A stretch of 64,000 bases of DNA, from the NCBI RefSeq assembly GCF_010015585.1, contig NW_022985068.1, positions 1,557,406-1,621,405 on the forward strand, written 5' to 3'. The stretch's first letter is position 1. Each line of letters starts with the position of its first letter. A program made the position numbers and the translations under genes. Source of the DNA: Eremomyces bilateralis CBS 781.70. Its lineage: Eukaryota > Ascomycota > Dothideomycetes > Eremomycetales > Eremomycetaceae. The notes beneath the pieces were generated by a model. That model saw only the letters and a program-made list of their open reading frames with translations. It was not told where the DNA came from and did not search any database. Below are positions 2,844 to 59,460 of the stretch, piece after piece.

Positions 2844-3909
2844 TCACTTTAGATGCGAAACCAGACCTTTGATATTCCCCTCCCCCCTCTCCGTCAACCA
2901 TACCCCAAAATACCTCCCCAACGCCTCCCCCCTCTCCTCCTCACTCCCCAGCTTCACCTCCCGCACCACCATCCCCCTCACCTTCACCTTCACCACACCT
3001 CCCATCAACGTCACCTGTCCCACTAACCCCCCGTACCTCTCCACCACCTCCCCGTCCGCCTCCCTCTTAACAACCCCCCACTCCACCAACTCCTCCCACC
3101 CCGCAAACCGCGCCCCTACCACCGTCCGCGTAAACAAACTCCTTACCCCCTCCATCGTCCCCACATTCATCACCTCATAATCCTCCCTCGTGAACTCCAC
3201 CTCCGTAAACGCGTACCCGGGCGTCCACTTCGTCCCCTCCACCTCCTGTCCCTCTCCGTCAACCCCGTAGTTCCTACTATGCTCATACACCCAAAACCGC
3301 GGCGTCGGGTCTGCGCCGCCCGGGAGCGCGCTCCGGGTGAGTTTCATGGTGGAGGTAGGGTGCCAGCCGCGGGTGATGAGGGAGGGGATGAGGGGGAGGG
3401 GCTGGGTGGGGGTGTCGGCACCAAAGCCGACGTCGACGGCGTAGGGGTGGGGGTGGTTGGGGATGGTGACGAGGCTGAGTTGGTGGTTGCTAGATAGTTG
3501 GCCAGGGGATCAAAGTCTAGAGACGGGTGACGGCAGACGGAGCGACTTACTACCCAAGAAACCCTTCCCCGCCTCCCCCCGTCGCGAGCGACACCTTCGC
3601 GCCGACGCTGACGACGTGATACCCTAACCCGCGCAACACGGCCGCGAAGAACGCGTTCACCTCCATGCAGTAGCCGCCGCGTCGGCGAGTGACAATCTTC
3701 TCGTACAGGTCAGTCGGGTCGAGGGAGAGGCGGCGGTGGGGGGTGTAGTGCAGGTCGAAGTTCTCGAAGGGGACATGGAGAAGGTGGGCGGTGAGGAGGG
3801 TGGTCAGAGCAGGGAGGGAGGGGTGCTGGGGGGCGGAGGGGGAGGGGTGGGGGAGGTTGAGGATGGTGGTGAGGTAGGGGTGGAGTTGGGAGGGGGTATA
3901 GACGGTCAT
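2844..3909 (-). CDS. Arylamine N-acetyltransferase
   Basis: Two exons (3551-3909 and 2844-3489) with a GT-AG intron give 334 residues. This enzyme family transfers acetyl or malonyl groups from CoA to aromatic amines; in fungi, members detoxify plant benzoxazolinone-derived compounds and anilines. The catalytic triad is visible. The cysteine lies in RRGGYCMEVN, the histidine in NHQLSLV just after the intron, and the aspartate in YAVDVGFG. The N-terminal HVPFENFDLHY block is also typical. The intron falls between the cysteine and histidine motifs, so the reading through it is well fixed by family order. No pathway neighbours are present. Third codon positions change from C-rich to G-rich along each exon. 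Confidence 0.93.
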
Positions 3910-4784
3910 AGTGAGGTTGGTTGAACGTTGACTGAGCTTGCTTTGGCGATAATTCTGAAGATTGTAGAAGGGGAGAAGAGTAGTGACTTTGTTGCTAACT
4001 TTCTGTTGATGGGAAAGAAAGAGTAGAATGGCTTAGATAGAGATATATCCACACTAATGATGATGAATTTCGTATATATCGAGATTTACCCTCGCAGAAG
4101 ACGATAAATCAAGGAGACCCTGTTTCTAGTTCTTTTCAAAACCAGCAGCTCGTCAATTACTTCCCTTCGTCTTGGAAATCTTAATAATTTGTTTGCCGAG
4201 CGCCTCTATCGCGATTTATTTGAGCACTTCGCCAAGAATACTGTTAGTTCTTGCATCTGCGGTGTCTTCATACTCCGGCAATAGTTGTCGGGATTGATAT
4301 GCGAGCTCTCTGCCGAATATGACATAGCTGCATACTCTTCGTATCGACATGAGCGAACATTTCTCGGACATGTTCCTTCTCCTATTTGACGTAGAATTTG
4401 TTCGGAATTCGGGGTTCTGATGTTGTATGTTGAATACCGCATTAATGCTGCACTTTCAGAACCCAGAAGGCCTACTTTCCCACTACCCACAATCCGGGTT
4501 GATAAGTAGGTACATATTTAGAATCATGAAGGATCGTCTCGCAGATCCTCTAGGAGACTAGGACCTTATGACGTGTCAGGTATAAGCACGATTTGGATCG
4601 GCCGGAAAGGTGTAGTTCTTGAGCTTTTGAGATATTACAAATATCCGACCTGCCATGAAGCGTTTCAATATTGCCTGCCGTCATAAGCCCCCGTCTTCAT
4701 CTGTCCAATCGTTTCTATATCAATATCGACTGATCATATCTGTATCAGAGCAGGTTGAACCGTCTCTATCCAAGTTGAACGACA
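3910..4784. other. Divergent intergenic region
   Basis: This is the shared upstream space of the acetyltransferase (minus) and the small membrane protein (plus). I see no supported gene. A 94-codon open frame on the minus strand has no recognisable features. Confidence 0.5.
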
Positions 4785-5243
4785 ATGGCCTCGCCACATC
4801 CCATGCCCCTTCCCTATCGCATAGCCTTTAACTGGATCGAGCCATTCGTAGCCACGTCTGGCGCCCTCCAAGCCTACTTCGCCCCCCATTCCCTCCAACA
4901 AATCGAAACCCCAAGCATTCCATACCACCCCCGCCTCCAACCCCTCTTCACCCAACGCACCGGCCTCTGGCTCCTCCTCGCCTTCAACGACGCCGTCACC
5001 CTCCGCGCGACGCGCGACGTGCGCATCTGGCGCCTCGTCCTTGCCGCAGGGCTGTTTTCAGACATCTTCTACACGCTGAGCATCCTGGAGGAGCGGGGCG
5101 CGGCGCGGTTCTGGAACCCGGCGGCGTGGGATGTGAATGATTGGACGTGTTTGGCGCTGACGATTCCGGCGATGGTGGTGAAGCTAGCGTGCGTTGCTGG
5201 AGTGGGGTTGAAGACATCTAAGCCATCGATGAAGGATTCCTAA
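4785..5243 (+). CDS. Small membrane protein, DUF7704-like
   Basis: A single-exon frame of 152 residues. The opening YRIAFNWIEPFVATSGALQAYF resembles the fungal DUF7704 family, which begins with a conserved aromatic-I-E-P motif and has about four membrane segments. Hydrophobic stretches lie near residues 60-70 (LWLLLAFNDAV), 82-97 (LVLAAGLFSDIFYTL) and 122-140 (CLALTIPAMVVKLACVAGV). Function is unknown. The start is the first ATG after a pyrimidine-rich, AC-rich leader. Codon use shifts from C-ending to G-ending in mid gene. The family assignment is from memory of the pattern and is moderate. Confidence 0.65.
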   Translation: MASPHPMPLPYRIAFNWIEPFVATSGALQAYFAPHSLQQIETPSIPYHPRLQPLFTQRTGLWLLLAFNDAVTLRATRDVRIWRLVLAAGLFSDIFYTLSILEERGAARFWNPAAWDVNDWTCLALTIPAMVVKLACVAGVGLKTSKPSMKDS

Positions 5244-15619: not shown

Positions 15620-15742
15620 TTCGTTGCGGAAAGCCTTTCCTTTCGTCACTGATGTTGGACTATTAACTTCCAACATGTAGCACACCAGGGTACCAGCTCG
15701 CCAATCTTGAGCGATACCCGACACCTGGCCCTAGATATATGC

Positions 15743-16676
15743 TTAAGGAGAGGTGTACTTATACTCGTACTGCTCCTTTGCTTTCGTTATAAGCTCCACA
15801 AACCCCTCAAACTCCTTCCTCGTCTCCGGCTCCTCCTCTAACTTCTTCTTGTACGCTGAATGCGTCAGATTCGTCTTATATGGCACCGCAATACCCCTCT
15901 GTACCGCCGGCCGTTTCTCCAACTCCGTCACCCACCTCACCAAGTTCGGAAACCGCTCTATCTCCAACCCCGTAGCGAGTCCGAAGGCAGCCCACCCGAA
16001 ATTCGCTATGTCCGCAATACTGTATTTCCCCCGCCCCTCCCCCACGATATAGTCCCGCCCCTCAAGATGGTGGTCCAGCACCCCGTACAGCCGCTCCGCC
16101 TCGCCGGCGTAGCGCTGGATGGGGAACGGGATCTTCTCTTTGGCGAACCGGGAAAAGTAGTTGGCTTGGCCATGCATGGGGCCGACGCCGCCGTGGTGCC
16201 AGGCCAACCATTGCTCGGAGCGGGAGATGTCAAGGGGGTCGGCGAAGGAGAAGCGGTGCTCTGGGTCGTACTGGCGGGTGAGGTAGAGTAGAATGCCTAG
16301 GATTCCGGGTTAGAGAACGTGGGACTACAATTGAGGCTGAATCGGATTGCAGACGTACCTAAACTTTCAAAGACCGCGAACCCACCCTTGTCATGGTCGA
16401 CAATGGCGGGAATGCGTCCGTTGGGATTCACTGCGATGAACCACGGCTCTTTCTGGACGCTTTTATAGAGGTTGATGCTCTGCCAGGTGTAGTCTTTGCC
16501 ATAGGCCTCCTTGAGCTCTTCGAGCAGAATCGACACCTTGATACCTAGAGACGGTTAGCGATGCTACACAATCAAGGAGATCCTGGACGGTTGAGCGAAC
16601 CATTGGGAGTGGGGGCTGTGAGGAATTCAATGCCTTTGGTCGCTTTCAGTCCTGTTGCTAGCTCGTCGGACGCCAT
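15743..16676 (-). CDS. Glutathione S-transferase, Ure2p-like
   Basis: Exons 16601-16676, 16359-16544 and 15743-16296 give 271 residues. The N-terminal thioredoxin-fold domain reads TAPTPNGIKVSILLEELKEAYG, then FIAVNPNGRIPAIVDHD and FESLGILLYLTRQYD, the glutathione-binding blocks of fungal Ure2p/theta-type transferases. The C-terminal helical domain has WLAWHHGGVGPMHGQ, YSIADIANFGW and RWVTELEKRPAVQRG. The likely role is conjugation of electrophiles or peroxide defence in the cytosol; the substrate is unknown. An in-frame upstream ATG at 16781 would add 35 residues beginning MLRRNLLARLQQATRHLSP, which looks like a mitochondrial presequence. I keep the shorter start because it matches the family. 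Confidence 0.9.
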
Positions 16677-16781
16677 GGTGCCGTTCCTGCGTTCTTGCGT
16701 TCGAGATGGTGGCGGTGATGCAATTGGGGAGAGATGCCGAGTTGCTTGTTGAAGTCGGGCGAGGAGATTTCGACGGAGCAT

Positions 16782-17637: not shown

Positions 17638-18150
17638 TTAAACTTTCGACCGTCCGGTATGAAGCGTCTTCGCCCTCCTCCCGAGGAAGAAGATCACGAC
17701 GCCAATCACCGCCGTGATGAACCACAGCAACATATTCACCAAATCCACCCACACCGCGTTCTTCATCCGCTGCACACCCGGGCCATGCCCGTCCTTCGGA
17801 TTCACCACCTCGGGATCTTCGTGGATGTACAGCTTCCCGAAGACGCCGAAGACCGCGACCCAGAGGATCCACAGGAGGGCGTCCCACGCGAAGAAGAGGT
17901 GGGAGGTGACGATGGGGAGGGCGTACACCACGCACGTCACGGCGGAGATGGAGCCGACGACGACGGCGTAGATCCATTTGCTGTCGGAGTAGACACCGGC
18001 GGCAGCGGCGTTGCGGAGGTCTTGGCCGTAGAGGCCGCATACGGTGAGGGCGAGGACGAATTGGAGGAGGCGAAGGGCGAAGCGGAGGACGAGGCCGGCG
18101 ATCCCGCCAGGGGAGTTGTCGGCCATGGAGCGGAGGTTGAGGAGCTGCAT
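17638..18150 (-). CDS. MARVEL-domain membrane protein
   Basis: A single exon of 170 residues, or 162 if the second methionine (MADNSPGGIAG) is the start, which looks like the commoner form. Four membrane segments are visible: about residues 18-43 (VLRFALRLLQFVLALTVCGLY), 58-80 (WIYAVVVGSISAVTCVVYAL), 85-107 (LFFAWDALLWILWVAVFGVF) and 135-156 (LVNMLLWFITAVIGVVIFFLG). This is the layout of the MARVEL family, found in membrane-apposition and eisosome-like proteins. The cytosolic tail is basic. Function is not predictable beyond membrane organisation. C-ending codons dominate the first half and G-ending codons the last part. Confidence 0.85.
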   Translation of the reverse strand: MQLLNLRSMADNSPGGIAGLVLRFALRLLQFVLALTVCGLYGQDLRNAAAAGVYSDSKWIYAVVVGSISAVTCVVYALPIVTSHLFFAWDALLWILWVAVFGVFGKLYIHEDPEVVNPKDGHGPGVQRMKNAVWVDLVNMLLWFITAVIGVVIFFLGRRAKTLHTGRSKV

Positions 18151-19259: not shown

Positions 19260-20068
19260 ATGAGCCATCTGAGCAAAGAGACCCTCGAGTCGGCGAAGAT
19301 CACCGTGCTCCCCGACCACTTCTACTACATCCCGAATTTCATCTCCCCCGAAGAAGAGGCATCCATCCTTCAAAAGGCACATCCAACCTTCAAGAAGCCA
19401 CCACCATGGCAATCCGCATACCAGTAACCAACTAACCCGCTAACCCCCTCCAGATCCCCCCCAACCGCTGGACCCAACTCACCCACCGCCGCCTCCAACC
19501 CCACCCCTCCCCCCTCACCCCCACCAACGTTCTCCTCGCCGCCCCCCTTCCCCCCTGGCTCTCTACCCACCCCCCCCTCCTCCCCCGCTTCCACCACCTC
19601 GCCCTCTTCGACTCCACCCCGCACGCATCGCCGAACCACGTGCTCGTCAACGAGTACCGCCCTGGCGAGGGGATCATGCCGCATGAGGATGGCGCCGCGT
19701 ATGCGCCGGTGGTGGCGACGGTGAGTTTGGGGGGGGCGACGTGTCTTGATATCTACGAGAAGGTGGACGGGGAGGGGACAGAGACGGCGAAGGATGGCAG
19801 GGTGAGGGGAAAATACCGCATCTTACAGGAACCGCGGTCATTGCTCATCACGATGGGGAGGGCGTACGTGGATCTGCTGCATGGGATTGCGCCGGTCGAG
19901 GTGGATGAGAACTTGAATGCGGATACAGTAGCGAATTGGGGGCTGTTGGGCGCTCCCGGGGACTATGAAGATGGAAGGTCCGCCCGGGAAACGCGCGTCT
20001 CGCTGACCTATCGAGATGTGCTTAAAGTGAGTCAGGTTATGAAAGGGCTGTTTGGGAGGCAGAAATGA
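19260..20068 (+). CDS. ALKBH6-like 2-oxoglutarate/Fe(II) dioxygenase
   Basis: Exon 1 (19260-19376) and exon 2 (19454-20068) give 243 residues. The protein starts MSHLSKETLESAKITVLPDH and has FYYIPNFISPEEEASILQK, then IPPNRWTQLTHRRLQ, NEYRPGEGIMPHEDG, YAPVVATVSLG, LLHGI and an RVSLTYR end. The iron ligands are the His and Asp of PHEDG and a downstream His, probably in LLHGI, and the final Arg binds 2-oxoglutarate. Human ALKBH6 belongs to the same AlkB subfamily; substrate preferences are poorly known. The join LQK|IPPNRW is fixed by family alignment, and the only junction that gives it has a GC donor (AAAAG then GCACAT) and a CAG acceptor. Reading through instead meets a stop. Confidence 0.9.
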
Positions 20069-20542: not shown

Positions 20543-22837
20543 TCAGCTCTCCATCGCGTCCCCACCCGTCCACACATGACTCGCGGTCATCGCGAAATAC
20601 CTCACATCCACATCATCATCCTGCCCCAGCTTCTCCAAATTCGGCATGATATTCTCGGTGATCAGCTCCTCGCCCTTGGGGCTCCCGTGCAGCGCGGCGG
20701 CGGCGTCGGCGCCTTTCTCCTTTTCGATGCCCAGCAACGACGCGTTCGGGGCCGCCGCGTCGAACGGCAGCTTCTTGAGGATGTCGATCAGCACCCCGTA
20801 CGACTTCGCCACATTGAATCGGATGTTCGGGATGTCGTCGGCGACGAGCTTTTCGAGGATGGAGAGGATGTGGGTTTCGATGATGGGGAGGGAGAGCGCG
20901 GGCGCGAGGGTCTAGGGGGGGTTAGCAGGGATGTTGGGGAGATGGGAGGTCGAGGAACTTACGGAGATGGCAAAACAGGTCGTCATGCGGTAGAGGTAGT
21001 TCGGGTGCTCGCCCATCGCCATGACGCGGGGGACGATCGCCTCACTCGCCCAGTCGACACCGAACACTTCGGTCAGCTTCTTGAGGTTCTGGGTGCTGGC
21101 TTCGCGGATGCTATAGACGGTGTCGCCGAGCCAGGACATGCAGAGGGATGACAGCTTCTCGTCGAAGAAGTTGACGCCGAGCTGGCTGGCAAGCAAGGGG
21201 ACGTATTCGATGATGGCGAGGCGGACGCGCCATTGTTTGTCTTCGGCGAGTTGGACGATGGCGGGGAGGAGGGATTGGGAGAGGAGTTCAATGCCGATGA
21301 CTAGTGGAGGTGAGCAGCGATTTGGGAGGTTATATCAGGAGTCGTACCATTGTTGACGAGTTCGAGCTTGGAGATGATGTTGAGGCGGACGTCGGGGAAG
21401 TCGTCCTTGAGCATATTCAAGAACATTGGAAGGAGGTGTGAAATGGTTCTAATCTGTCAGCTTTTGGATGCTACACTGTCGTGGACAAACTTACTCCTCC
21501 TTGCCAAGGATTGGTGCTAACCCGCTCAACTGAGTTCCCAGAGAAGCGCGGACATGCTGTGACTGGTCGTTGACGAGCTCCTCAATCTTCGGCATGATCT
21601 CGTTTAACAGGACTTCACGGTCCACAAGTGTGCAGAATCCTGACGTCCGGTTAGCTCTGGGTTGTTGTCCGAACAGCGTCGGTACTGACCAGGAATCTGT
21701 CCTGCAATTGCAGTCCGCACTTCTGCCTCCGTGTCTCCGAGAAGTTTGGCGAACGCTGGAACCAGATCTCTGCTGACAACCTCGTCCTCTACAGCCTTGG
21801 CAATCTAAACAAATTAGCTCCAGTTCACTACTCCAGCTAAAGATCATCATACCTTTTCAAAGCGATCTGCCACCATATATCTCACCCTCCAGCTCTTATC
21901 CGAGATCAACTCCCTCAATGCCGTCAACAGAACCCCGTGACTGCTGTGCTGGTCCTTCGGCACCGCCTCAGCAATCCCTATCAAGATATCGACGGTCAAC
22001 AACCGCACGCTATCCTGATCATCCCCAGCCAAATGCTGAAATAACGGGATCATTTCCTCGATCACTACCGGCGCCGCCATGGTTTTGACAAACTTGGCCA
22101 TATTGGTGGCCGCCTGTCTCCGGACCATGGGGGTGTCATCGTGGACGAGCTGGCCGAATTGCTGTCGAAGGCGTTCTTGGGAGGGTGGGGTGGCGCGAGG
22201 GTAGGGGTTGTAGTAGAGGCCGGCGGCGGAGATCTTGGATGTGAACCAGTCGGCTTTTGAGAGGCGGACGACGAGAGGGATGAAGTGTTCTTCGACTTGC
22301 TGCGTGGTGAGTTGGTCGCAGATTTTGTTTAGGGATTCGACCGCCTTGCATCCGGTTAGTACTAAGACACTAAACATGCTCTGTCGATGTTGCTGTACCT
22401 TTTCTCTGACCAGTGGCTCTTCTATCGCCGCCAGATTCTCCAATGGTGATAGCAGAACATGGCCGTGTTCAGGACCTCCCACATACTCCACAAAGTTGCC
22501 CAACTCCTCACTGAGTGCTGTCAACACCTCATCCTCATCCTCCACAGACTCTGAGCCACCCAGTTAGCACGTTTCAAGGCTGGATGTAGGTAGGGTTAGG
22601 AACTACCGTCTAGGAAGGGTATGAGCTCATCGCGTGTCCGCTCCGGTCCCAGAGCTAAGGCAATCGTCGAAAGGCGATGAATGGCATTCAACCGCAGGAG
22701 AACATCATCATGCTATACATTCGTCAGCAACCTCGACATGTGAGACGGATGATTGGAATTTGGCGGAGTCGCACCTTGAGCTCGTCCATGAGCACTGCGA
22801 TGGGGTAGAATTCGTCATTTTGATTCGGGGCGTCCAT
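20543..22837 (-). CDS. TPD3: Protein phosphatase 2A scaffold (A) subunit
   Basis: About nine exons, eight short GT-AG introns. The protein starts [21 protein letters not shown] and is made of tandem HEAT repeats. Recognisable units include [97 protein letters not shown] and [12 protein letters not shown]. The subunit holds the catalytic and B subunits of PP2A together in cytoplasm and nucleus, affecting mitosis and septation. The C-terminus, [17 protein letters not shown], lies slightly beyond the last canonical repeat. An upstream in-frame extension exists but MDAPNQ is the usual family start. The gene is divergent from the PheRS gene. Confidence 0.95.
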
Positions 22838-23459: not shown

Positions 23460-25658
23460 ATGCCTACTATATCTTGCGATAAAGTCGAGCTTTATAAAGC
23501 TCTTGGGAAAGAGTGTGTATCTCCCAGGTCCAGACACTTGGTGCGGCTTGACCGAAGGCTAACCAGATGAAGCTTCACGACGGAGGAGTTCGATGAGCTA
23601 TGTTTCGAATTCGGTATGAACCTTCTAGAGTTAACCAGAGTAATCGCTAAGACTGTCTGATAGGAATTGAGCTCGATGAAGACGTGCGACACCTTTCTTT
23701 GAGACCCTCGACTTCCCCGCTTACCATTCCAGACCACCGACCAGAAGCGACCGATCGTCGATGGCGTGGAAGAGCCGCCTCAGCTGAAAATCGAGATCCC
23801 CGCGAACAGGTGTGGATAACCGATTGCCCTATAAAGAATCGATTGTAACGATGAACTAGATATGACATGGTCTGCTTCGAAGGAATCGCCAGGGCCCTCA
23901 ACGTCTTCCTCCAGCGGATGAAGCCGCCGAGTTTCCGAGTCATCGCACCCCCGGAAGGAGAGTTGCAGACCATGGTTGTCAAAGAGGATGTATGGCTCCC
24001 TATATCGTATGGAGTTCTCAGCACTGATGTTCGATAGACCACGAGAATACGACCGCTCATCTCATGCGCCATTCTCCGGGGAATAACCTTCACTAAAGAC
24101 CGCTATGCGTCTTTCATTGCTCTACAAGATAAACTGCATGCCAATTTGGCCAGGCAGAGGACACTTGTATCGGTCGGTACTCATGACCTTGACACGATCA
24201 AAGGACCGTTCACGTACGAGGCACTTCCACCAGAGGAGATCAACTTTGTTCCCCTGAATCAGACGAATAAGATGAACGGCAAGGAACTGATGGAGTACTA
24301 CGACGTATGTCAAGTCTCGACCCATGCGACGAGTTACTAACCCCTCCCAGAAAGATAAGCACCTGGGAAAGTTCCTCCACATCATCCGGGATTCCCCCGT
24401 CTACCCTGTCATCTACGACGCCAACCGCACCGTGCTCTCCCTCCCCCCCATCATCAACGGCGACCACTCCAAGATCACCCTCAACACCCGCAACATCCTT
24501 ATCGAGATCACTGCCACCGACCAAACCAAAGTCGAGATCGTCAACCACATCCTCTGCGCCATGTTCAGCGAATACTGCGACACCCCCTTCACCGTCGAGC
24601 CCGTCCAGATCATCTCCCCCCACAACCACGCCTCCCGCCAATCCCCGGACCTCACCCCCCGCGAAATCCAAGCCTCTGTCGCCTACATCAACTCCTGCTG
24701 CGGCCTCGACCTTCCCGCGACCGAGATCTGCCACCTCCTCACCCGCATGGGCCACCACGCCGTCCCCTCCCCCACCGACCCGGACCTCGTCGACATCGCC
24801 GTCCCCATCACCCGAGCCGACGTCCTCCACCAAGCCGACATCATGGAAGACGTCGCCGTCGCCTACGGCTTCAACCGCCTCCCCCGCTACTACCCCAACT
24901 CCTCCGCCGCCGTCGGCGCCGCCCTCCCGATGAACAAGCTCGGCGACGTCGTGCGTATCGAGTCCGCCACCGCCGGCTGGACGGAGGTTATGCCGCTGAT
25001 CCTGTGCAGCCACGACGAGAACTTCGCGTGGCTGAACCGCGTCGACGATGGGACCACCGCGGTGCGCCTGGCGAACCCGAAGAGCGCGGAGTATCAGATC
25101 GTGCGCACGAGCCTGCTGCCGGGCGTGCTGAAGACGATCCGCGAGAATAAGCATCGCGCGGTGCCGTTGAAGGTGTTCGAGGTGAGCGACGTGTGTTTTA
25201 AGGACGAGACGCGTGAGCGGAAGACGCGGAATGAGCGGCATTTCTGCGCGGCGTGGTATGGGAAGAGCAGTGGGTTCGAGGTGGTGCATGGGTTGTTGGA
25301 TCGGGTGCTGGCGATGTTGAATGTTCGGTTCCTGATGGAGGCAAAGGAGCTGGATGATGCGACAGTCGATGGGTATTGGATCGAGGAGTTCGATCGTAAG
25401 CTTCCCTTCCTATTTTGCTGGGGGATTTCGCTGACATTTTTTAGATCCCACCTTCTTCGTCGGTCATGCTGCGTCGGTGGTCGTGAGACAGGACGGTCAG
25501 AAACAGGTCGTCGGCCACTTCGGCATCTTGCATCCGACGGTTCTCAAAAACTTCGAGCTTCCGTAAGTGCTGCAGGCTCTTTACTTCGAATGTCACTAAC
25601 CCAGAACGACAGGTACCCGGTCAGTGCGCTTGAGATCAACCTGGAGGTGTTCTTATAG
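23460..25658 (+). CDS. FRS1: Phenylalanyl-tRNA synthetase beta subunit, cytosolic
   Basis: About eight exons. The start [17 protein letters not shown] is followed by [20 protein letters not shown], then [23 protein letters not shown], the conserved N-terminal blocks of the eukaryotic/archaeal beta subunit. Later come a B3/4 region, [22 protein letters not shown] (B5-type), [21 protein letters not shown] (motif for the catalytic-like module), and a C-terminus of [16 protein letters not shown] and [14 protein letters not shown]. With the alpha subunit it charges tRNA-Phe. The intron 1 acceptor that keeps frame is GAAG before CTTCACG, giving K-D-F-T-T-E-E-F. The largest exon (from 24352) shows a sharp change from C-ending to G-ending codons near 24950. 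Confidence 0.94.
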
Positions 25659-25864: not shown

Positions 25865-27286
25865 TCACTCCACCCTCGTCGCCAACGTCCCCGTCGGCCT
25901 CTCCACCAACTCCATGCACCCCTCCACCACTGCCTTCCTCACCCCCTCACTACTCACCTTCTTCCCCCCAAGATACCCCAACCACAACAACCTTGCCACC
26001 CGCTCATCCTCCACCGTCCCCAATCCCTCCCACTCCCCACCCACTCCCCTCCCCTCCACTTTCTCCCGCTTCTGAAACAGCATCTCCAATTCCCCCTGCT
26101 CCTTTCGTCGTAATACTATCACCGACCCCTTCGGCGCCGACCCTCGCCCTGCCAACGCCGCCTGAAACCCCCGCATCGACTCCGCGAAGCTCTCGTCCGC
26201 GAACGACGCATCCCCGGCCTTCTGCGCGGCGGCCGTGCGCGCCTTGATCCCCGTGACCCAGCCGTCGCGGAGGTGGTTGAAGTCGGTGCTGCGGGTGGGC
26301 ACGACGCGGAGGGCGGTGTCGACTTTGGTGGCAGCAGGGTCAGCCAGGACGGCGTCCCAGAGCTGATAGGAGGCGTCGGGATCGAGGAGTGCGGTGCGGA
26401 GGTCGGCCTTTTCGGAGGGGATGAGGGCAGTGGCGGTGGGGTTGACGCGATGGACGAGGGTAGATTGGAGGGCGGGGAGGGAGGCGGTGCGGACGTAGAG
26501 GCCGACTACGTAGACTTGGATGCTGAGGAAGGAGACGCTGCGGATGCCGAGGCCGAGGAGGGTGTATTCGGAGGTGTCGGCGTTGTTGGTGGGGTGGGGG
26601 AGGTGGATGGTTTTGGGGAAGTGGGGGATGGAGGAGGTACCCGTGGGGACGAGTTCGATGTCCATGCCGGATTCGTCCTTCACGATGAGCTTTTCGCCGC
26701 CGGGCGCCACCACAACGGGTTTTCCGAGAAACGTCGACGCATCTTTCGACGGAGGCGCGTCGCAGCGTTCCGTACCGGACCACCCGGACGAGGACACCGA
26801 CGACTCCCGCGGCTGCACTCGAACGGTGACTTCCCGCGCTCTCTTCTGCTGGTCCTTCTCCTTACTGAGGTTATCCGGATGGCCGATCTGCAGCATCAGC
26901 ACGGCGGGCCCCGCCAGCAGCATCACGACGGCCAACGCGGCGTAGTTCGCGCGCCGGCTGTGGTATTTCCGGCGGGCCTTCTCGTATTTCGCCACGGCGG
27001 CTTTGTCGAGGGGGTTTTTCGGCGGGAGGGGGCGGCCTCGATCGTCGCGGAGGACGCCATCGGATGAATCGTCTGTGGGAAGGGCTTGGGCCGAGAGGAC
27101 GGATTGGCCGGTGAGTTTGCGGAGCTCAGCTTCGTTGCGGGACTCGATGGGGACTTTGAACTGGGAGGAAAGGCGGGTGGTGGTGTGGATAGTGCCCGTC
27201 AGGGCGAGGGGACGGTGTCTTTGGAGTCCGATGCATCGTGAATGGCGGCGGCGCATCAACGAGCCGAACACTCGATTGACGTTCAT
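25865..27286 (-). CDS. AIM18: AIM18-like mitochondrial chalcone-isomerase-fold protein
   Basis: Uninterrupted 473-residue frame. The first 40 residues are Arg-rich without acids (MNVNRVFGSLMRRRHSRC), as in a mitochondrial presequence. A membrane segment follows near residues 115-133 (YAALAVVMLLAGPAVLMLQ). The conserved core includes TIHLPHP, YTLLGLGIRSVSFLSIQVYVVGLYV, LRVVPTRSTDFNHLRDGWVTGI and FQAALAGRGSAPKGSVIVL. That order matches yeast Aim18/Aim46, which have a chalcone isomerase-like fold, bind haem and lie in the inner membrane facing the intermembrane space. No flavonoid role is implied. The gene converges on FRS1 with 206 bases between them. Confidence 0.9.
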   Translation of the reverse strand: MNVNRVFGSLMRRRHSRCIGLQRHRPLALTGTIHTTTRLSSQFKVPIESRNEAELRKLTGQSVLSAQALPTDDSSDGVLRDDRGRPLPPKNPLDKAAVAKYEKARRKYHSRRANYAALAVVMLLAGPAVLMLQIGHPDNLSKEKDQQKRAREVTVRVQPRESSVSSSGWSGTERCDAPPSKDASTFLGKPVVVAPGGEKLIVKDESGMDIELVPTGTSSIPHFPKTIHLPHPTNNADTSEYTLLGLGIRSVSFLSIQVYVVGLYVRTASLPALQSTLVHRVNPTATALIPSEKADLRTALLDPDASYQLWDAVLADPAATKVDTALRVVPTRSTDFNHLRDGWVTGIKARTAAAQKAGDASFADESFAESMRGFQAALAGRGSAPKGSVIVLRRKEQGELEMLFQKREKVEGRGVGGEWEGLGTVEDERVARLLWLGYLGGKKVSSEGVRKAVVEGCMELVERPTGTLATRVE

Positions 27287-27660: not shown

Positions 27661-28797
27661 ATGCCTCTAGTCCGCAAACGCCGAGCCGTAAGATCTCCCC
27701 CCCCCATCATCCAGTAACACCCTAACCCCCCACCAGACCCGCGACGACATCGACGACGACGACGTCCAGACGCCCCGACGCCGCCAACTCCCGGACGATT
27801 CCTCCGACGAAGATGTCACTATGGTCGCGGACGACGATGCATCGCAGCCGGGCGGTGCCGCCGACGTGACACAGATGGCGAGGAAGCTGGTGCGGTTGGC
27901 GTTGGCGTGCGAGTATTCGCGGCAGCCGATCCGGCGGGCGGAGATCAGTGCGAAGGGTATGTATGCTTGGGGTGTCGAGGGTGGAGGCGATGAGGAACAC
28001 GCGATGCTGATGGTGGATAGTGCTGGGGAACCACCCGAGACAGTTCAAGACGGTGTTTGAGGAGGCGCAGGGGACGTTACGGGATGTGTTTGGTATGGAG
28101 ATGAGCGAGTTGCCGGTGCGAGAGAAAATCACGTTGCAGGAGAAGCGAGGTACGTTCTTCCTTTCCATTTCTATCACCGCTCCCATCCTCGATTCAGAGA
28201 AGCAGAAAACTGACCCATCCAGCCGCCCAACGCGCTCCCAAAGGTTCCCTCTCCAGCAAATCCTGGGTCCTCACCACCGTCCTCCCCCCCCGCTTCCGCG
28301 ACCCCGCCATCATCCCCCCACCCGCCGTCCCCACGCATGACGCCGAAAGCGCCTACATTGGCCTCTACACCTTCCTCATCAGCGTGATCTACCTGAACGG
28401 CGGGTCGCTCGCGGAGGCGAAGCTGGAGCGGTACCTGCGGCGGGCGAACGCGGACGAGTACACGCCGGTGGATAGGACGGATAAGCTGCTGCAGCGGATG
28501 CAGCGGGAGGGGTATTTGGTAAGGGTGAAGGATAATTCGACGGGGGAAGAGATGGTGGAGTATATGGTGGGGCCGAGGGGGAAGGTGGAGGTGGGAGAGA
28601 AGGGGGTGCAGGGGGTGGTAAAGAAGGTATATGGGGAGGGAGCGTCGGAGGATCTGGACAGGCGGTTGGAGCGGAGTTTGGGGGTGGTGGATAGGATGGG
28701 CGGGGGGGTGGAGGAGGTTCGGGAGGATGGTGGAAATGAGCAGAGGAGAGGGCCAGGCAGGCCAAGGAGGAGAAACGAGGATGATGTGGAGGAGTGA
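27661..28797 (+). CDS. NSE3: SMC5-SMC6 complex MAGE-type subunit NSE3
   Basis: Four exons. The start MPLVRKRRA is followed by an acidic, disordered region (DDIDDDDVQTPRRRQLPDDSSDEDV). The MAGE homology domain then begins with MARKLVRLALACEYSRQPIRRAEISAKVLG and continues VFEEAQGTLRDVFGMEM, SWVLTTVLPPRF, YIGLYTFLISVIYLNGGSL and LQRMQREGYLVRV. The winged-helix fold and these blocks match fungal Nse3, part of the Nse1-Nse3-Nse4 module of the SMC5/6 complex in nuclear DNA repair. The C-terminus ends in a basic RRGPGRPRRR stretch, an AT-hook-like motif that could contact DNA. Codon endings change from C to G near 28390. Confidence 0.9.
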
Positions 28798-37379: not shown

Positions 37380-37459
37380 CAGCAATCTTTAACCTTCATG
37401 ATCACCAGTTGCCCGAGAAAAGATATTGGCAAGATCATCCACAGTCACCTCCATCAAAG

Positions 37460-38468: not shown

Positions 38469-41400
38469 CTATTTTACATCCCCATCCCCATCCTGTCCTC
38501 CACCCTCACCCTGCACACCCCCTATTCCCATCCCTTGCCCCACATCCCCATACCCCTGCGTCAAATCCGCCCAATCCCACTCCAACGTCATCGGCATCTG
38601 CCACAAATCCTGCGGCACGAACGGATACTGGAAACTGTTCCCCATATCCGCCGCAAGCCCGTCCGCCCCGGCAAACACCCCTCCACCCGCCCCGCCGCCG
38701 CTGAACGCCCCCGACGTCGGCCCCTGGCCCCCACCAGGCGACCGCGCCACCGACGCCATCCCTAACGTGTTGCGCCCGATGCCATGGTGTCCCGGGCTAC
38801 CCCGACTACCATTCGGCTGCGGAGAGGGGCGCAACCCGCTGGGTCTGGGGGTTACTGGGAGGAGTGGATTTCCCGGGGCCGGAGACGAGAAGGCGGAGAG
38901 GCCGGGCCACTGGTCGGCGCCGGTGACGCTGCTGGTGATAGCGGGGAGGGTGAAGTCCGAGGCGAACTCGGGGGGGCTGAAGACGTTGGGGATGTTGCCA
39001 GGCACGGACGGTTCGTTGTTGTTGGTGGGGAGGGAGCTGGAGAGGGGGCGGGAGTGCGGGCTGGCGGAGCGGGTGGCGGTGCCGCTGCCGGTGAGGCTGG
39101 GGGTGTGGGTGCTGGAGTTTTGATTCGTGGTGGCTCCGGTCCGCGAGGTGCTGTCCATACCATCAGGGTCTTGGGTGGCTTTGCGCTTGCGACTGCCGGC
39201 GCGGTCACGTTCGGCCTTTTCGATGACGACGTTGGAGATGCGTTCGAATTCGGCGCAGACGGAGAGCATGCGGCGGACGGAGGAGTTTTCTTCGTCGGAG
39301 CATAGAGCGCTGAGGAAGGTGACGACGAGGTTCATGAGTTTGAGGTCGGAGCGGGCGCGAGTGTCTTGGGGGTTTTGGAGGACGTTGGCGAAGAGGGTGA
39401 CAAGGGCGGAAACGGGGTAGTAGATAACAAGCCTGAGAGGTAATTAGATGGGATCCATAGGGGGAAATGAGATATGACATACCAGACGCAGGCACAATCA
39501 CCGTGCGGGATGTACTTGATGAGATGAATGCTTGCTCGAGCAGCACTCACGCATAGTGCAGCGGAGCTGAAGACTCTCGGGTTGAGCGGACGCGCATTCA
39601 AGCCTTGGATGGCATAATTGCTTAGTCTGCTCGTCCAATACCCATGATGTATGCTCATCCGATGAATCGTGGTTAGACAATTATAGTACGCAAAATGCAA
39701 GACCACAACGTGGAGTATTAACGGCGTATGCGATGCGCGGATTTCATGTTCGGGTCGGAAATCGATCGGAATGCCGTCTTTCCACTCTTCCAATTCTCGG
39801 TCCAGCTCGCCAATCGTGTTCAAGAGCTCTCCGTCGGACTGCTTCGTGGCTTTGACGGAGTAGAGATTCTTGTACACTTTGGACGCAATGGCCGCAAAGG
39901 TACACATTAGGCGGAATAGATTAATCTTGCCTTTCCCGTCGGCAAGGGGAATGTTTCCGACGTTGTCTGGCGGGTCTTCTGATGGAAGTTCGACGTTCAT
40001 GTCGTCATCGTCCTGAATAGGAGGCCGTCCGGATCGTAAGCAGATACTAGCCCGAGTCAGCAACCATACGTATAAATTCATCGCCATACATACTCTCGAT
40101 CGAGCATATAGCCAATCCAAAATACACGTTTTCGTTGCTCAATTTCGTCTCGGTTTAGACCGAAGCCTGATCCCCGCTTGTGTAATCCGATGCTGTGGGA
40201 GAGCCGAATAGCAGCAGCGACGAGGAAGAACGAAGGCTGAGGATTCGGTGTGCCTTGCAAGAACAGGGCCTAAAGGTGTTAACGAGCCTATCCATGCATT
40301 TGAGTACGGCTTTCAACAACTCACCATTCCGAGCAGCGCTTGGATGCTCAGCAAGTCCGTATTCCGCATCGTCAACTCCGTTTGAACCGCCAACGCATTC
40401 TTCAAATACCCCCACGCCTTCTGATCTTCTTCCTGCGGGACAAGATTGCTCACGACGCGTAACCGGTGACCAATAGCCAAGGCGATATTCAAACTCGCCC
40501 ACCAACCGCTTCCCTCATACGGTTCCCGGGAATAATGCTTGTCGACCAAATGCATGAAGGTCGGTTCATGGAAGAGGGGGAACATGCAGTTGAAGTTCTC
40601 GAAATAATCCTTGAGGAGCGAGAGCGCTTCGTTTTTGGACGGCAGAGGCCTGAAGACGCGCCGTTGGAAGATGTCTCGGAAGACGTCGGATTTCCAGTGG
40701 ATCCATTTGTTGTCGTCGATGGCAGCGTTGGTGATCATGTCTTGGAAGGAGTGGTCGCCCGTCTTCTCGTTTACCCACTGGATCCCTTTGGGTGAGAATA
40801 TTGAAAAGCCAGAAGAGGAGCCTAGTTGAGTCAGCGGCCCGGCATTGGAACCGTCTGGTTTATCAAGGACTGGGAGTTCGTACCAATATATCGCGTTTCG
40901 CCGCAATTGTTCGTGACCAAAGAGCACATCATGTCCGATAGTGCCTCTACCTCTTCTTCTCTACTTCGCTGTGGTTCGGGCGAAGTGGTATTGCCACTAC
41001 CCGGAGAGCTAATATGCTGACTCGTGGCATCGGTGCCATTCTCTAATCTGTCAGTCGTGCTTGTTTGATCTCCCTGTGCGGATGCGCTCTGCTCCCGTCT
41101 CTGCTGCGCCTTTTCGGAAAGACGCTTCTCCAGCGTTCCCAGGTCGGTCCTCCCGTCATCATCGTCGGATAGTAGTCCCGAGAGTCGAAGAAGTGATTCC
41201 ATACGTCCCAATCGGTTTTCGAGGCCTTCGATGTATTTCGCGCTAGAAGAATGTCAACCCAGGCCCATCCTTCGACACGTGCGACTTGTTCATACCCTTT
41301 GGGGGGATTTCTCTTCTTCTCCACTTGTGTGAAGATGCATTCGGTCTTGTAGTTCTGGCAATGAGTACAAGCCGGCATCCTTCCGTCGCACTTGATTTTC

Positions 41401-44311: not shown

Positions 44312-45749
44312 ATGTTCGAAGATACTAGAACCACTCCACAGCCCATGAAGGTGGTGGACATCCGGAAACACCCCGAATATTCGCATGTCTTATGGCCCCT
44401 GAAGCCGTCGCAGGAGGGAAAGATTGCGGTAGCTAAGGGGAGGGGAGGACCGTTTAATATTGCCTATGAGGTACATGGAAATGGTTCGAAGCGGTTGGTG
44501 GTACGTCATGCATTGCAGTATTTCATATACATAGTGCTTTGCCTTGAAGTCACATAAACACTCCTATACTATGTCTCCTTTTCTGCAATCGTTCTAAGCT
44601 TTGGCGACGTTTATAAGTCTTTTATGATTGTCACACTTTCGGAAACAGCTCCTCCCTTGGGCCTTGGTAACTGTTTTGGGTCTATGTCACATATCAAGTC
44701 GACCAATATGACACCTTGGTTCTAAACACCCAACACAAGTCGAACAACATCACTCACCATGACTTCACCAGTGGATAATGGGCCTCGGTGGTATCATGCA
44801 GCAATGGCAACGTCAAACCAAAGACTTCGCCCACCGACCCGACTCCCCATATTCCTCTCTCATCTTCGACAACCGTGGCGTCGGCCAGTCTGACAAGCCA
44901 TACATGCGTTACTCGACCACCGAAATGGCGCAGGACATAGTGGAGCTCCTCGACCACGTCGGATGGACGCAGTCCCGCGAACTGCACGTCATCGGGATCA
45001 GCCTCGGCGGCATGATCGCGCAGGAACTCGGCCTCCTCATCCCCTCCCGCATCGCCTCCCTCTCCCTCATCTCCACCGCCCCCCAACTCGTTCGCACCCT
45101 CGGCTTCTTCGAAAACATCCTCAACCGCATCAACCTCTTCATCCCCCGCTCCCTCGACGTCCAACTCGCCACCATCAAACGCAACTGCTACACCGCCGCC
45201 TTCCTCGACGCCCCCGACGAGCTCGCCGCCGAATCCGCCGTCCAATCCTTCCCTACCAACGGCGACCGCTTCGCCGCCCTCGAGATCCAGAAGCGCTCCG
45301 ACCTCCAGTCCTTCCGCTTCCAGGGCTTCGCCGCGCAGGCCATGGCGGCGGGATGGCATCATAAGACGGGGTCGCAGCTCGCGGCGCTGGGGGACCGGGT
45401 CGGGCGGAAGCGGATCATGGTGGTGCACGGGACGGGGGATCGGATGGTGCCGTTCGTGCATGGGCCGATGCTCGCGAGGGGGTTGGGGTTGGTGGAGGAG
45501 GTGGAGCACGGGGAGGGGGTGGAGGCGGGGGTGGTGAGGGATGTGAAGGGGGGGAGTGGTGTGTTTCGGGATGGGGATGGGGAGTTTCGACCGAGTGGGG
45601 ATGGGGCGGCGAGGGGGAGGGAGGGAGTGGTGAGGTTCGTGGAGGGACAGGGGCATGTCATTCCGATTGAGTGGAGGGGGAGGTTTAATGAGTGGGTGGA
45701 GGAGATGGTGGCGAGGGGGGAGGAGTGTAATCGGGAGGAGGGCGTGTAG
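44312..45749 (+). CDS. Alpha/beta hydrolase
   Basis: Two exons (44312-44500, 44772-45749) give 388 residues. The start shown is MFEDTRTTPQPMKVV; a later ATG (MKVVDIRKHPEY) and earlier ones are possible. After FNIAYEVHGNGSKRLV the intron joins to WIMGLGGIMQQWQ, the oxyanion-loop region. The nucleophile elbow is HVIGISLGGM (Ser in GISLG). The acid is in MVVHGTGDRMVP and the histidine in VEGQGHVIPI. This is the arrangement of 3-oxoadipate enol-lactonase and related hydrolases. The substrate is unknown. The 271-base intron is long for this window. Exon 2 opens with almost only C-ending codons and ends with mainly G-ending ones. Confidence 0.88.
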
Positions 45750-48085: not shown

Positions 48086-48367
48086 TAAGATCAATGTGAC
48101 ATGGGAGATGCCTTTGATACTATCATTACGGAGTTAGGAATGGTTAGGAAATTGGAAAATGTTGGTGTGGGAGGTGATAAACTTGATCAGCTTGCCGAAA
48201 ACAGCTGAAGAACTTGGTGTAAGACGAATCCAAGACCCCTTGTCGATAAGGAGCAGGTCCTGGAGATTTTACGGGCGGTTGCCGGATGAGCCAGTGGGGT
48301 CCTGGCAAGCAGTGTAATATCTGACTGTGGATGCTATGTACAGAAACTAGAAATCGAGATACATAGA

Positions 48368-52619: not shown

Positions 52620-52824
52620 CGTCCGAGGACGCTCAAAAGTTCTTGCTGCTCTTTGGAGGATATCTATCTCACTTTGTATGTTGTTTGAAACGATTTCCTA
52701 CAGTTCGATGAGCGATGACTGCATTTTTGGATGAGAGCATCTGGTTCAGGCTCTACATAGTGGCATTTAGGATACCCGGTCTAGCTAAGCCTCGCTCGAC
52801 AAACTGTACTTAAACAATAATACA

Positions 52825-56500: not shown

Positions 56501-57511
56501 TTCGACTTAGTAGCTAGAACTCAGATGCAATAATGAATGTACAATCAAGTGAAAGGAAATGACAGCATGATAAGGATGGAACGCTTGAGGAATGCAACTG
56601 AAAAGCCCGACAGGAAACGCATTATGCGAAATGATCGAAGGTACAAAGAGACTAAAGCATCGGCAACTGAAGCCGTATATACCTGTAAACCCCCTTGCGC
56701 TCTGCAATAAGCATAAATAAAAACGTTAATGTTATTCGGTAGACAGGGCCAGAGCAGGCAGCCGGCAAATGGCAGAGTCGATCGTTTAGAAGAGGACTGG
56801 CACATGCCTCTAATACTGCTTAAACAATGCCTACGGCTGCTCAATCTACATAGATTGGAGCAAGCGGTGAAGAGTGGTGTAGATTCAGACAGATCCATAT
56901 GAGGTCGGAGAGATATTGAACAAAGTCAGGGGAAAATGGAGTTGGTGCCCTAAGCCCTAACAATGCTCATGATTGGCTAGGCAACACCACAGATCTGAGC
57001 AAACACGTTATGTATGGATCACGTGCAAGTTTTTCACTCTATAGCTTACGTAATTATATCCTACAATCCTAACTACATCTTGTAATTATCCTGAATTCCT
57101 GAATCCTGAATCCTGAATTCCTGATCCTGCCTTGTGGCTTACCATACCCAAATTGACCCCTTCACCAGCCTCCTCCCCCTTAACCCTGATCGGATACTAT
57201 CGCAATGGCGGTTTGACCTTTGCCAATTTCATCTGCAGCCATTCCACCGAAAGTTACCTTAGTACTTTGGTTATCTGAGCGATTAGGCAAAATGTGATGC
57301 CTAGGCTTTAAAAGATGAGCATTATGTGCAACTATTGTACCACCAGTAGGGATGATGGCGGGGTTGGCCTTCGGCCGATGGCAGCCGAATGAGATAAGTG
57401 CCTTGCATGGAGACATCGCAACGCTCCAATCTCTCAACTGTAATGTTCCTTTCACCAGGGCAGAAGTAGAATTGAGTTGAGGACTTCAAGTTCCTCAGTG
57501 CTGCCAATATC
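56501..57511. other. Divergent intergenic region
   Basis: About 1 kb between the SURNod19-like and amidase genes. A short run of CCTGAAT repeats occurs near 57089-57125. A minus-strand frame at 57180-57455 has no known motif. Confidence 0.45.
57089..57127 (+). repeat. Imperfect short tandem repeat of TCCTGAAT type
   Basis: Copies of CCTGAAT separated by T or TC recur five times, some as CCTGAATT and one as CCTGATC. The alternation of 7- and 8-base units gives an imperfect array. Confidence 0.8.
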
Positions 57512-59460
57512 ATGGTCCGTCCATTTGACTATTTCGATCATCGTCGCGACTGGTGAGGCTTTACCTTTATCCCCCTTCGACGGAGCATCCATGTAGTACG
57601 GAGATAAGTATCGTGAGTGCTAACCGAGACTCTTGCAGCAAGTACAAGCAAGATGAACGCGCCCGTCGCATCGCTTCCCTCCCTAAAGAATACACTGGCC
57701 CTATAACGCCAACCGAACGCGGCATCCTCGCCTACCCCATCTCCGAGCTCGTCAATCACGTCCACAATGGCGTCGTCCAGCCCGTCGACATCCTCCGCGC
57801 CTACGGCAAATCTGCGATCGCAGCCCACAAGAAAACCAACTGCCTAACCGAGATCCTCTTCCCCTCGGCCGAGAACCACGCCCACGTCTCCGCCGACGCC
57901 AAAGGCCCGCTCGCCGGCGTGCCCGTATCGCTCAAAGACTCCGTCAACGTCGCCGGCTTCGACACCAGCGTCGGATACTCCGGCTATACCCGCCAACCCC
58001 TCGCGGACGATGGCCCTATGGTTCGCCTCCTCCGCGACGCCGGCGCCGTGCCGTTCGTCAAGACAAACCTCCCAACCACCCTCCTCTCCTTCGAGTCCTC
58101 CAACGACGTCTGGGGCCGGACGCGCAACCCGCACAATCCGGCGTACAGCCCCGGCGGGTCCACGGGCGGCGAGTCGGCGCTACTGGCGGCAGGGGGTTCC
58201 CGGATCGGGATCGGCTCGGATGTAGCGGGTAGCGTGCGCATCCCGGCGCATTGGTCAGGGTGCTATTCGCTGCGATGTAGTACAGGGCGGTGGCCGAAGA
58301 TGGGGAATCGGACGAGTATGCCGGGGCAGGAGGGGGTTCCGAGTGTGTTTAGTCCGATGACGAGGACATTGGGGGATCTGAGGTACTTCACGAAGGCGGT
58401 GGTGGGGATGAAGCCGTGGACATATGATCATAGCGCGCATCCGATTGAGTGGAGAGAGGATGTGGTGGAGGAGTTTGCGGCGAAGAAGTTGAGGATTGGA
58501 GTGATGAGGTCGGATGGTAAGTCTCGTTGCCTCGCCTATCGGCGCCTTAAGCATCAAATTGCCTACGCGCGAAACTAATATGTTAATCCAGGCGTCGTTG
58601 ATCCTTCTCCCGCATGTGCCCGCGCCCTCTCCATCGCCGCAACTGCCCTCTCCGATGCAGGTCACTCCGTCATCGACATCCCTCCGCCTCCGTCCCCCAT
58701 ATCCCCTTACGATGGCCTCGTCCTCGCCTCCCAGCTCCTTAACTCCGACGGCTGTGCCACTTTCCTCTCCTTCCTCCGAACCGGCGAGTCATCTGACCCC
58801 GGCGCCATACAGCTCTCGTTCTGGGCGAACTTGGCGCGCCCGCTCAAATGGCTGTATTACGCCTACGTTAAGTACGTCAAGAGGGACGCCGTCTGGGCAG
58901 AGCTGCTGAAGGGCTTTGGACCGGTATCTGCTACGGAGCAGTGGAAATTGGTGATCAGCAGGGAGTCTTTCCGGCTGGCATGGCATGAGTGGTGGGAGGG
59001 CGGAAATGGGCTGGGTGGCATGGAGAAGAAGGTGGATGTGATTTTGACAGCGCCGAACGCGACGCCCGCGCTACCGCATGGCGCGATGAAGGATGCAGTG
59101 AGCGCGTGTGGGTATACATTTTTGTTCAATATGGTAGGGCACCTCTTCCTGGAATGATCTCTGTTGCCGATGCAGGACTGACATGGCTCGCAGCTGGATT
59201 ATTCATGTGGCATCCTCCCTGTCACCCACGTCGATGCGGAACTTGATGCCCTCCCGGTGGACTTCAAGCTGAGGAAGCTGAATGGTGTCGCGCGCGGTGC
59301 GTACAAGCATTACGATGCAAAGAAGATGGGGGGACTGCCGGTCGCGGTGCAGGTGGTTGGGCAGAGGTTGGAGGAAGAGAAGGTGTTGACTGTGATGCAA
59401 CGGCTGGAAGATGCATTGGAGTCGAGAGGGGAGAAGTATCTGCTTCTGGAAATTGACTAG
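57512..59460 (+). CDS. Amidase (amidase signature family)
   Basis: Four exons. The short first exon encodes MVRPFDYFDHRRD and joins at 57639 to CKYKQDERARRIASLPKEY, the conserved start of fungal acetamidase-type enzymes. The catalytic Lys is in LAGVPVSLKDSVN. The amidase signature is SPGGSTGGESALLAAGGS followed by IGSDVAGSVRIPAHWSG, which supplies the cis-Ser and nucleophilic Ser of the Ser-Ser-Lys triad. The last exon holds LDYSCGILPVTHVD and GLPVAVQVVGQRLEEEKVL, as in the family. Such enzymes hydrolyse small amides; the actual substrate is unknown. Exon 2 and exon 3 each start with C-ending codons and finish with G-ending ones. Confidence 0.92.

Follow-up and report, generated by a model that had tools for sequence, protein, structure and literature searches.

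GC-rich islands with a C-rich left flank and a G-rich right flank, accompanied by GC skew and R-loops, are known from CpG-island promoters. The element described here has the same C-rich left and G-rich right about a centre, but it lies inside fungal coding exons and not at promoters. It was noticed in a 64,000-nucleotide (nt) stretch of the Eremomyces bilateralis CBS 781.70 genome (C2:1557406-1621405, hereafter the window), where the original prediction claimed that, in about a dozen genes, the sense strand of an exon passes from C-ending to G-ending codons. A similar order has been described for whole fungal genes, of which the coding strand is C-biased at the 5′ and G-biased at the 3′ end (McLean & Tirosh 2011, PMC3315797). 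That skew extends to codon positions 1 and 2, amino acids, promoters and untranslated regions (UTRs), with Aspergillus, Neurospora and Fusarium included (PMC3315797). The C bias near the start codon and the G bias near the stop are found here as well, and here too they are seen at fourfold-degenerate sites, at other codon positions and in UTR-side DNA. However, the published skew is given per gene, and the word 'exon' is absent from the accessible part of that article (PMC3315797), whereas here the skew restarts at introns. It is also carried by a subset of exons rich in third-position GC (GC3), is linked to the orientation of the downstream gene and reaches about -0.75 and +0.7 at fourfold sites around the C-to-G switch.

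In Arabidopsis and rice, GC content changes stepwise at introns, and conversion tracts were suggested as the cause (Ressayre et al. 2015, PMC4684703). Introns are compositional barriers in both systems, but the plant work concerns GC content rather than C versus G ('skew' does not occur in the available text, PMC4684703); there, external gene regions are raised and internal ones constrained, whereas some internal exons are polar here. Around human meiotic breaks, a strand-asymmetric mutation pattern that includes C>G is complement-symmetric about a point (PMC7615360), and so is the asymmetry found here. However, as far as the accessible part of that article goes, the sign would be opposite if the break were at the exon centre, and only breaks between polar exons would fit. 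An exon-wise C-to-G cycle or a link to convergent genes was not found among the top-ranked open-licence literature matches, judged by title and abstract opening; given this scope, the result is weak evidence of novelty. The present analysis extends the per-gene fungal skew published in 2011 to the exon level and supplies a testable correlate, the orientation of the downstream gene.

Three regions of the same genome (26.6 Mb, 62 contigs) were added to the window: C1:500001-700000 (9,962 bases of which are N), C5:300001-350000 (with some N) and, last, C9:200001-230000. This amounts to 344 kb, or about 1.3% of this one genome. Gene models are predictions of a two-strand gene finder that was self-trained on the sequence itself; it misses some genes, and further open frames in gaps of C1 and C5 were left out of the models. 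For the first 314 kb the finder predicted 103 genes with 189 introns, which have a clear fungal consensus (GTRAGT-like donor, RCTRAY branch, YAG) and a median length of 56 nt. For exons of at least 60 codons, the contrast between the first and the last third was compared with a null of amino-acid-preserving synonymous shuffles within each gene; position profiles and contrast tests used genes of at least 150 codons. Orientation and unit tests used exons of 100-300 codons, and orientation counts omit genes at region ends that lack a neighbour. Exons with GC3 ≥0.7 and p ≤0.01 (n = 39) are called strong, a GC3 criterion that inflates their coding GC by selection. A Pfam match in the predicted frame (E ≤0.01) was found for 27 of these 39 exons, 20 above the curated cut-off and one at it. 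Flank and alignment analyses place exons and switches from codons only; skew values taken within ±300 nt of detected switches are partly selected by the detector.

The exon-wise C-to-G order is confirmed as real; it recurs outside the window and is limited to a subset of exons, mainly those with GC3 ≥0.7. With amino acids held fixed, a C-to-G switch at p ≤0.01 was found in 50 of the 175 exons of the first 314 kb and the reverse in three (17 of 45 in the window with one reversed, 27 of 105 in C1 with two, 6 of 25 in C5 with none). In C9, which was fetched after the main analysis, 8 of 19 exons were significant and none was reversed. The mean contrast was 0.25-0.39, against 0.04-0.07 in the null. 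The original prediction had named two possible weaknesses, namely the lack of a systematic sign change within exons genome-wide and a dependence on amino-acid composition. Across the 175 sampled exons, fourfold skew, (G-C)/(G+C), changes sign, from -0.34 at the exon start to +0.32 at the exon end, and the effect exceeds that in the amino-acid-preserving shuffles, so that amino-acid composition is ruled out as an explanation. The rise is common to first, internal and last exons. By gene position, fourfold skew runs from -0.24 in the first decile to +0.33 in the last (91 genes of at least 150 codons) and is nearly flat in mid-gene. An annotation-free scan of the window detected 22 C-to-G switches, compared with a mean of 0.95 in block shuffles. 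Polarity is carried by exons of high GC3 (39 of 53 at GC3 ≥0.7 versus 11 of 122 below), and by length the share of polar exons was 1 of 44 at 60-100 codons, 47 of 104 at 100-400 codons and, by the contrast test, 2 of 27 above that. Internal exons of 100-300 codons were polar in 11 of 35 cases.

The pattern is suggestive of a scar at the DNA level, left by two-way transcription or by recombination, and not of a codon preference. Fourfold sites of strong exons are 0.71 C and 0.14 G before the switch and 0.16 C and 0.66 G after it, so that in the 39 strong exons one side is the near-complement of the other. Codon positions 1 and 2 follow the skew, with first-position G rising from 0.25 to about 0.45 along strong exons. 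The polarity also spills into noncoding DNA: the 5′ flank of strong exons is C-skewed over 200 nt (-0.39, -0.32, -0.22 and -0.24 per 50 nt; 11 genes) and the 3′ flank is G-skewed over 100 nt (+0.31 and +0.13; 24 genes). Compared with their counterparts at weak exons, introns upstream of strong exons have a more pronounced C skew (pooled -0.35 vs -0.15; 28 vs 59 introns; per-intron p = 6e-5), and downstream ones have a higher GC content (p = 0.003). Since upstream introns and UTR-side DNA are polar and the two sides are complementary, the needs of translation or protein are not the main cause. Translational codon selection would be confined to codons and blind to introns and neighbouring genes, which is not what was found. 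The pooled 189 introns are C-skewed over their full length, at about -0.07 to -0.29 per decile. A search for a motif at the switch returned mainly CG-rich words, as expected where C-rich meets G-rich sequence; the CpG observed/expected ratio is 1.15 at the switch, 0.97 off-centre and 1.03 in weak exons, a minor effect. The polarity is strong enough to accompany changed amino acids. At L005:9133-9702, some 135 residues follow a Pmp3 domain (residues 6-54), and the exon has the largest contrast of the 39 strong exons (+1.46); compositional drive may have shaped this protein extension.

It had also been proposed that the two halves of an exon pair in the RNA. This idea was not supported: in the 39 strong exons, a half matched its cognate no better than it matched a half taken from another exon (mean rank 0.496, p = 0.80). 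Flanks facing each other across 113 introns showed no preferential pairing either (mean rank 0.517, p = 0.66), and the whole-exon folding energy did not differ from that of synonymous shuffles (p = 0.82; the 27 of 39 strong exons with at most 215 codons). Selection on RNA shape, either through such pairing or through a segregation of C and G that keeps the message locally unfolded, is very improbable. Local 60-nt folding is much weaker than in synonymous shuffles that destroy the order (mean z +3.6; 26 of 27 exons), as expected when C and G are separated, but it does not differ significantly from shuffles that keep local skew (p = 0.19). Nor would selection on RNA shape be expected to produce polarity beyond the coding sequence or a dependence on the neighbouring gene.

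The claim that the cycle restarts at introns is well supported. Of 47 introns that separate long exons, 38 show a drop in skew, whereas 480 pseudo-introns placed inside exons have a mean of opposite sign and do not reset the cycle (p = 2e-11). A logistic regression gave intron edges terms of their own (acceptor -0.65, -0.88 to -0.42; donor +0.53, 0.29 to 0.76), separate from those of the gene ends (ATG -0.46, stop +1.42). These separate terms and the pseudo-intron comparison rule out a gene-wise trend alone; skew set purely by gene position would leave mid-gene sequence intermediate, which is not the case at intron edges. Annotation-free C-to-G switches fall in exons in 55 of 62 cases, never in introns and seven times between genes, while 31 of 46 G-to-C switches are intergenic, six intronic and nine exonic. 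The further claim that the cycle tracks exons and not genes stands as a strong tendency but not as a rule: six of the nine exonic G-to-C resets are over 100 nt away from the nearest exon edge, most clearly those in the AIM18-like (~26660) and SPP1-like (~32182) genes of the window, and the exon is therefore the usual, not the obligatory, unit.

As a unit, the polarity resembles an island made of a C-rich and a G-rich stretch, each about 300-400 nt long, that in most cases occupies a single exon of 300-1000 nt. With a penalty of one parameter applied, a step described 31 of the 39 strong exons better than a linear trend did, and in very long exons the island is often at one end only. Such a centre-peaked, complement-symmetric island suits recombination tracts in intron-free blocks about as well as two-way transcription. 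In a recombination footprint, conversion tracts would be initiated within long coding blocks that lack introns and would end close to introns and to gene ends, while biased, strand-dependent mismatch repair would drive C to one side of the initiation point and G to the other, with a GC peak in the middle; we consider this possible, though not probable. GC3 of strong exons, which were chosen partly for GC3, does peak in mid-exon (about 0.87, against about 0.75 and 0.67 at the ends), the polarity step is centred there, and the near-complementary halves are as expected for a process blind to gene direction. In 89 exons of 100-300 codons without GC3 selection, a higher C excess in the first third goes with a higher G excess in the last (rho -0.49, p = 1e-6), and the skew of each end tracks GC3 of the opposite third. 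The contrast is also largely exon-local, with a correlation of 0.11 in 65 same-gene exon pairs, a value that disfavours exon polarity as a gene-level trait such as expression. In addition, introns were proposed as barriers to conversion tracts in plants (PMC4684703), 1435 of 2578 hotspots of Zymoseptoria tritici are in exons and 132 in introns (PMC5844332), and mismatch resolution can be strand-biased (PMC9001825).

However, recombination alone predicts neither the dependence on downstream orientation nor the excess of switches near stop codons. The ends are hardly correlated in exons other than last or single ones (rho -0.14, 55 exons), and GC3, unlike the contrast, is common to the exons of a gene (0.45). 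Of the expectations for GC-biased gene conversion, the rise of G+C toward the centre was found, whereas an equal gain of G and C on one strand, noncoding DNA included, was not, as C gains on the left and G on the right. Noncoding flanks gain little GC, and GC-biased conversion is described as extremely weak or absent in Zymoseptoria (PMC5844332). In our reading of PMC7615360, as far as its accessible part goes, the human footprint has the opposite sign around the break, so breaks at exon centres would need a different polarity rule.

The apparent exon unit might instead be the sum of fungal gene-end skew and splice-site selection, with G-rich sequence before donors and C-rich sequence after acceptors, or with avoidance of cryptic introns. 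The gene-end terms of the regression are large and the intron-edge terms separate, the two ends vary almost independently in non-last exons, gene-level skew is published (PMC3315797), and a C-then-G order would minimise donor-before-acceptor contexts. This explanation is nevertheless rather unlikely, as it would not lead one to expect the covariation of the ends in last and single exons (rho -0.72, 34 exons) or the dependence on the neighbour. For splice signals, 200-400 nt would be a long reach, 125 of 175 exons miss p ≤0.01, and the skew continues into UTR-side DNA.

Polarity is linked to the orientation of the downstream neighbour. Among genes that have an exon of 100-300 codons, a polar one was present in 28 of 37 whose downstream neighbour is convergent and in 5 of 22 whose neighbour is tandem (Fisher 1e-4). 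With neighbours refined by adding two models and a major facilitator superfamily (MFS) gene, the counts were 28 of 37 versus 5 of 21 (region-stratified permutation p = 4e-4), and the annotation-free scan placed a switch in 35 of the 57 convergent genes and in 9 of the 38 tandem ones (p = 4e-4). The orientation of the upstream neighbour had no effect (20 of 36 vs 14 of 22). Both halves are stronger in convergent genes, the first third at -0.41 vs -0.21 (p = 0.006) and the last at +0.28 vs +0.06 (p = 0.0015). Position within the gene matters too, the polarity being linked to its last kilobase: of 53 switches, 23 were located at a distance of 200-400 nt from the stop, against an expectation of 6.0. 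Exons centred within 400 nt of the stop were polar in 19 of 23 convergent and 4 of 10 tandem cases, and those centred at 400-1500 nt in 10 of 23 and 0 of 17. In convergent pairs, both genes were polar in 6 of 11, one in four and none in one, which is uninformative. Gene class could confound this link if old, conserved genes had gained GC3 and polarity and were more often convergent, with young cluster genes in tandem. Indeed, GC3 is 0.71 in convergent and 0.62 in tandem genes, and the HET-domain gene of the window, which has a tandem downstream neighbour, lacks polarity. This confounding is improbable; it accounts for the orientation link but not for polarity itself, amidase and P450 exons are polar, the polarity of adjacent genes is uncorrelated (rho -0.04, 80 pairs), and allowing for gene length and for the number of exons leaves the link in place (59 genes, permutation p = 0.003).

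Taken together, the intron reset and the link to neighbour orientation speak for transcription of both strands with introns as barriers. We favour this reading tentatively, well short of even confidence, with recombination close behind. A process tied to transcription, such as the R-loops over the G-rich part that the original prediction also considered, would be compatible with the link to convergent neighbours and with the rarity of polarity among exons as short as 60-100 codons. A DNA-level drive would act on intron-free transcribed blocks and favour C on the sense strand toward their 5′ end and G toward their 3′ end. Its source would be the gene's own transcript together with antisense read-through from the convergent 3′ neighbour; in Neurospora, antisense RNAs are mostly convergent 3′ overlaps, 371 pairs of which overlap by at least 500 nt (PMC3951366). 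Nascent RNA would form R-loops increasingly with distance from the last promoter or intron, and introns have been proposed as a protection against R-loops (PMC1863416). The displaced strand would be the sense strand in the 3′ part, through sense RNA, and the antisense strand in the 5′ part, through antisense RNA, and strand-biased mutation or repair would leave it G-rich. Introns would interrupt the process and restart the cycle. A more specific version is unlikely, namely that convergent transcription writes the polarity per intron-free block, that introns are physical barriers and that the resets in the AIM18-like and SPP1-like genes are scars of lost introns.

Several observations weigh against transcription of both strands as the cause. 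Fourfold A and T are depleted about equally in both halves, where a single deamination-type mutation predicts otherwise. Introns downstream of strong exons show no significant shift in skew (-0.04 vs -0.18 pooled, p = 0.16; 15 vs 70 introns), and the noncoding flanks are polar with little GC gain. In long exons, and in one amidase paralogue, the skew looks strongest at the switch and weaker at the edges, for the long exons in part a result of switch alignment; such a weakening is not expected from a simple distance-from-intron model. The exon rule is a statistical one, the AIM18-like and SPP1-like genes being reset without a modelled intron, and the exons of the convergent niaD gene are not polar. 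The skew of the 3′ end hardly varies with the gap to the convergent neighbour, though read-through should fade; median gaps were 438 nt for polar and 838 nt for non-polar convergent genes (p = 0.33). At 1500 nt or more from the stop, the sign of the link is reversed, though the cases are few (3 of 11 convergent, 2 of 4 tandem). The link emerged post hoc among many covariates, and the C9 counts (4 of 5 convergent, 2 of 3 tandem) have the same sign in 30 kb, too little to test. Convergent genes could also differ from tandem ones in age or class.

If the polarity is general in fungi, it would bias work on codon usage, on the ratio of nonsynonymous to synonymous substitution rates (dN/dS) and on gene finding. 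It would also be a sequence record of antisense transcription or recombination and a test of whether introns shield DNA. If convergent transcription is the cause, the bare genome sequence would record where antisense transcription and R-loops acted.

Within the window, the C-then-G order was recovered in all the genes for which it had been reported. In the alpha/beta hydrolase, exon 2 (44772..45749, plus strand; Abhydrolase_1) switches at ~45333 (contrast +1.06, p = 0.002). A recount gave 51 C-ending codons (52 by the earlier hand count) and 3 G among the 60 from 45000, and 44 G, as originally counted, and 3 C among the 60 from 45480. Exon 2 of the gene that the original prediction named ALKBH6 (19454..20068, plus; 2OG-FeII_Oxy_2) switches at ~19663 (+1.01, p = 0.002); its first 60 codons have the 49 C-endings originally counted, and its last 60 have 10 C and 27 G. 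In the acetyltransferase on the minus strand, exon 2 (2844..3474; Acetyltransf_2 in the sense frame) switches at ~3267 (+1.19, p = 0.002) and exon 1 (3551..3909) has its own cycle with a switch at ~3716 (+0.87, p = 0.004). Single exons with one switch are those of the DUF7704 gene (4785..5243, plus; ~5078; +0.96, p = 0.002) and the MARVEL-like gene (17638..18150, minus; ~17890; +1.11, p = 0.002), the latter just missing the MARVEL cut-off (31.8 against 32.8 bits). Exon 3 of the GST gene (15743..16296, minus; GST_C) switches at ~16064 (+1.02, p = 0.002), and the long exon of FRS1, the Phe-tRNA synthetase beta gene (24351..25395, plus; tRNA_synthFbeta, B5), at ~24929 (+1.07, p = 0.002). Outside the original list, in the HEAT-repeat gene on the minus strand, exon 2 (20963..21300; HEAT) has a weaker cycle (+0.43, p = 0.010) and exon 3 (20543..20911; HEAT) its own, with a switch at ~20742 (+0.80, p = 0.002). 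In NSE3 (MAGE) on the plus strand, the short exon 2 (27737..27956; MAGE at the cut-off) contains a cycle (+1.29, p = 0.002), and the last exon (28244..28797; MAGE) switches at ~28452 (+1.11, p = 0.002). The gene named 'Zn2Cys6' in the original prediction (minus strand) is polar in exon 4 (40325..40785; +0.65, p = 0.002; Fungal_trans under the cut-off, E 0.0026) and in the last exon (38469..39432; switch ~38815; +1.03, p = 0.002), which has no Pfam match.

Two single-exon genes contain two cycles each. The AIM18-like (chalcone isomerase-like) exon (25865..27286, minus; +0.65) switches at ~26956 and ~26201, with a G-to-C reset at ~26660. The SPP1-like exon (30011..32524, plus; PHD, with CpG_bind_C under the cut-off) has its two cycles near the 3′ end, with a switch at 31861 and a reset at ~32182 beside a donor-like GTGAGC. 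The two cycles are plain in counts per 30 codons, and because they share one exon, the test of first against last third gave merely +0.24 (p = 0.016). Both interior resets are possible scars of lost introns.

In the amidase gene (plus strand), exon 2 (57639..58516; Amidase) switches at ~58153 (+1.09, p = 0.002), exon 3 (58592..59133; Amidase under the cut-off, E 0.0036) has its own cycle at ~58823 (+0.95, p = 0.002), and exon 4 (59194..59460) has a third, weak one (+0.62, p = 0.042), with 11 C/9 G, 5 C/18 G and 1 C/17 G per 30 codons. The amidase family has 29 matches, of which five paralogues were compared (identities 21-36%; anecdotal). The intronless paralogue L031 has just one cycle, in mid-exon, compared with one in each exon of the window gene, L027 has one near the stop, and L028-L030 have none that is clear.

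The HET-domain gene (11311-12876) and niaD (33761-37092) had been listed as lacking the order, and the contrast test agrees. The MFS transporter of that list has fragments at 50674-52616 (51075-51995 and 52077-52616 match MFS_1); it was missed by the gene finder and has a GC3 of about 0.5 and no polarity. The GH43 gene of that list was not found among the window proteins scanned; a glycosyl hydrolase family 12 gene without polarity (48147-49010, GC3 0.54) was seen instead. The long antisense open frames noted earlier probably follow from high GC3, and a separate cause is unnecessary. No tRNA genes were found in the window by a tRNA scan. Directly downstream of the HET-domain gene lies a biotin-dependent carboxylase-like gene (13370-15619).

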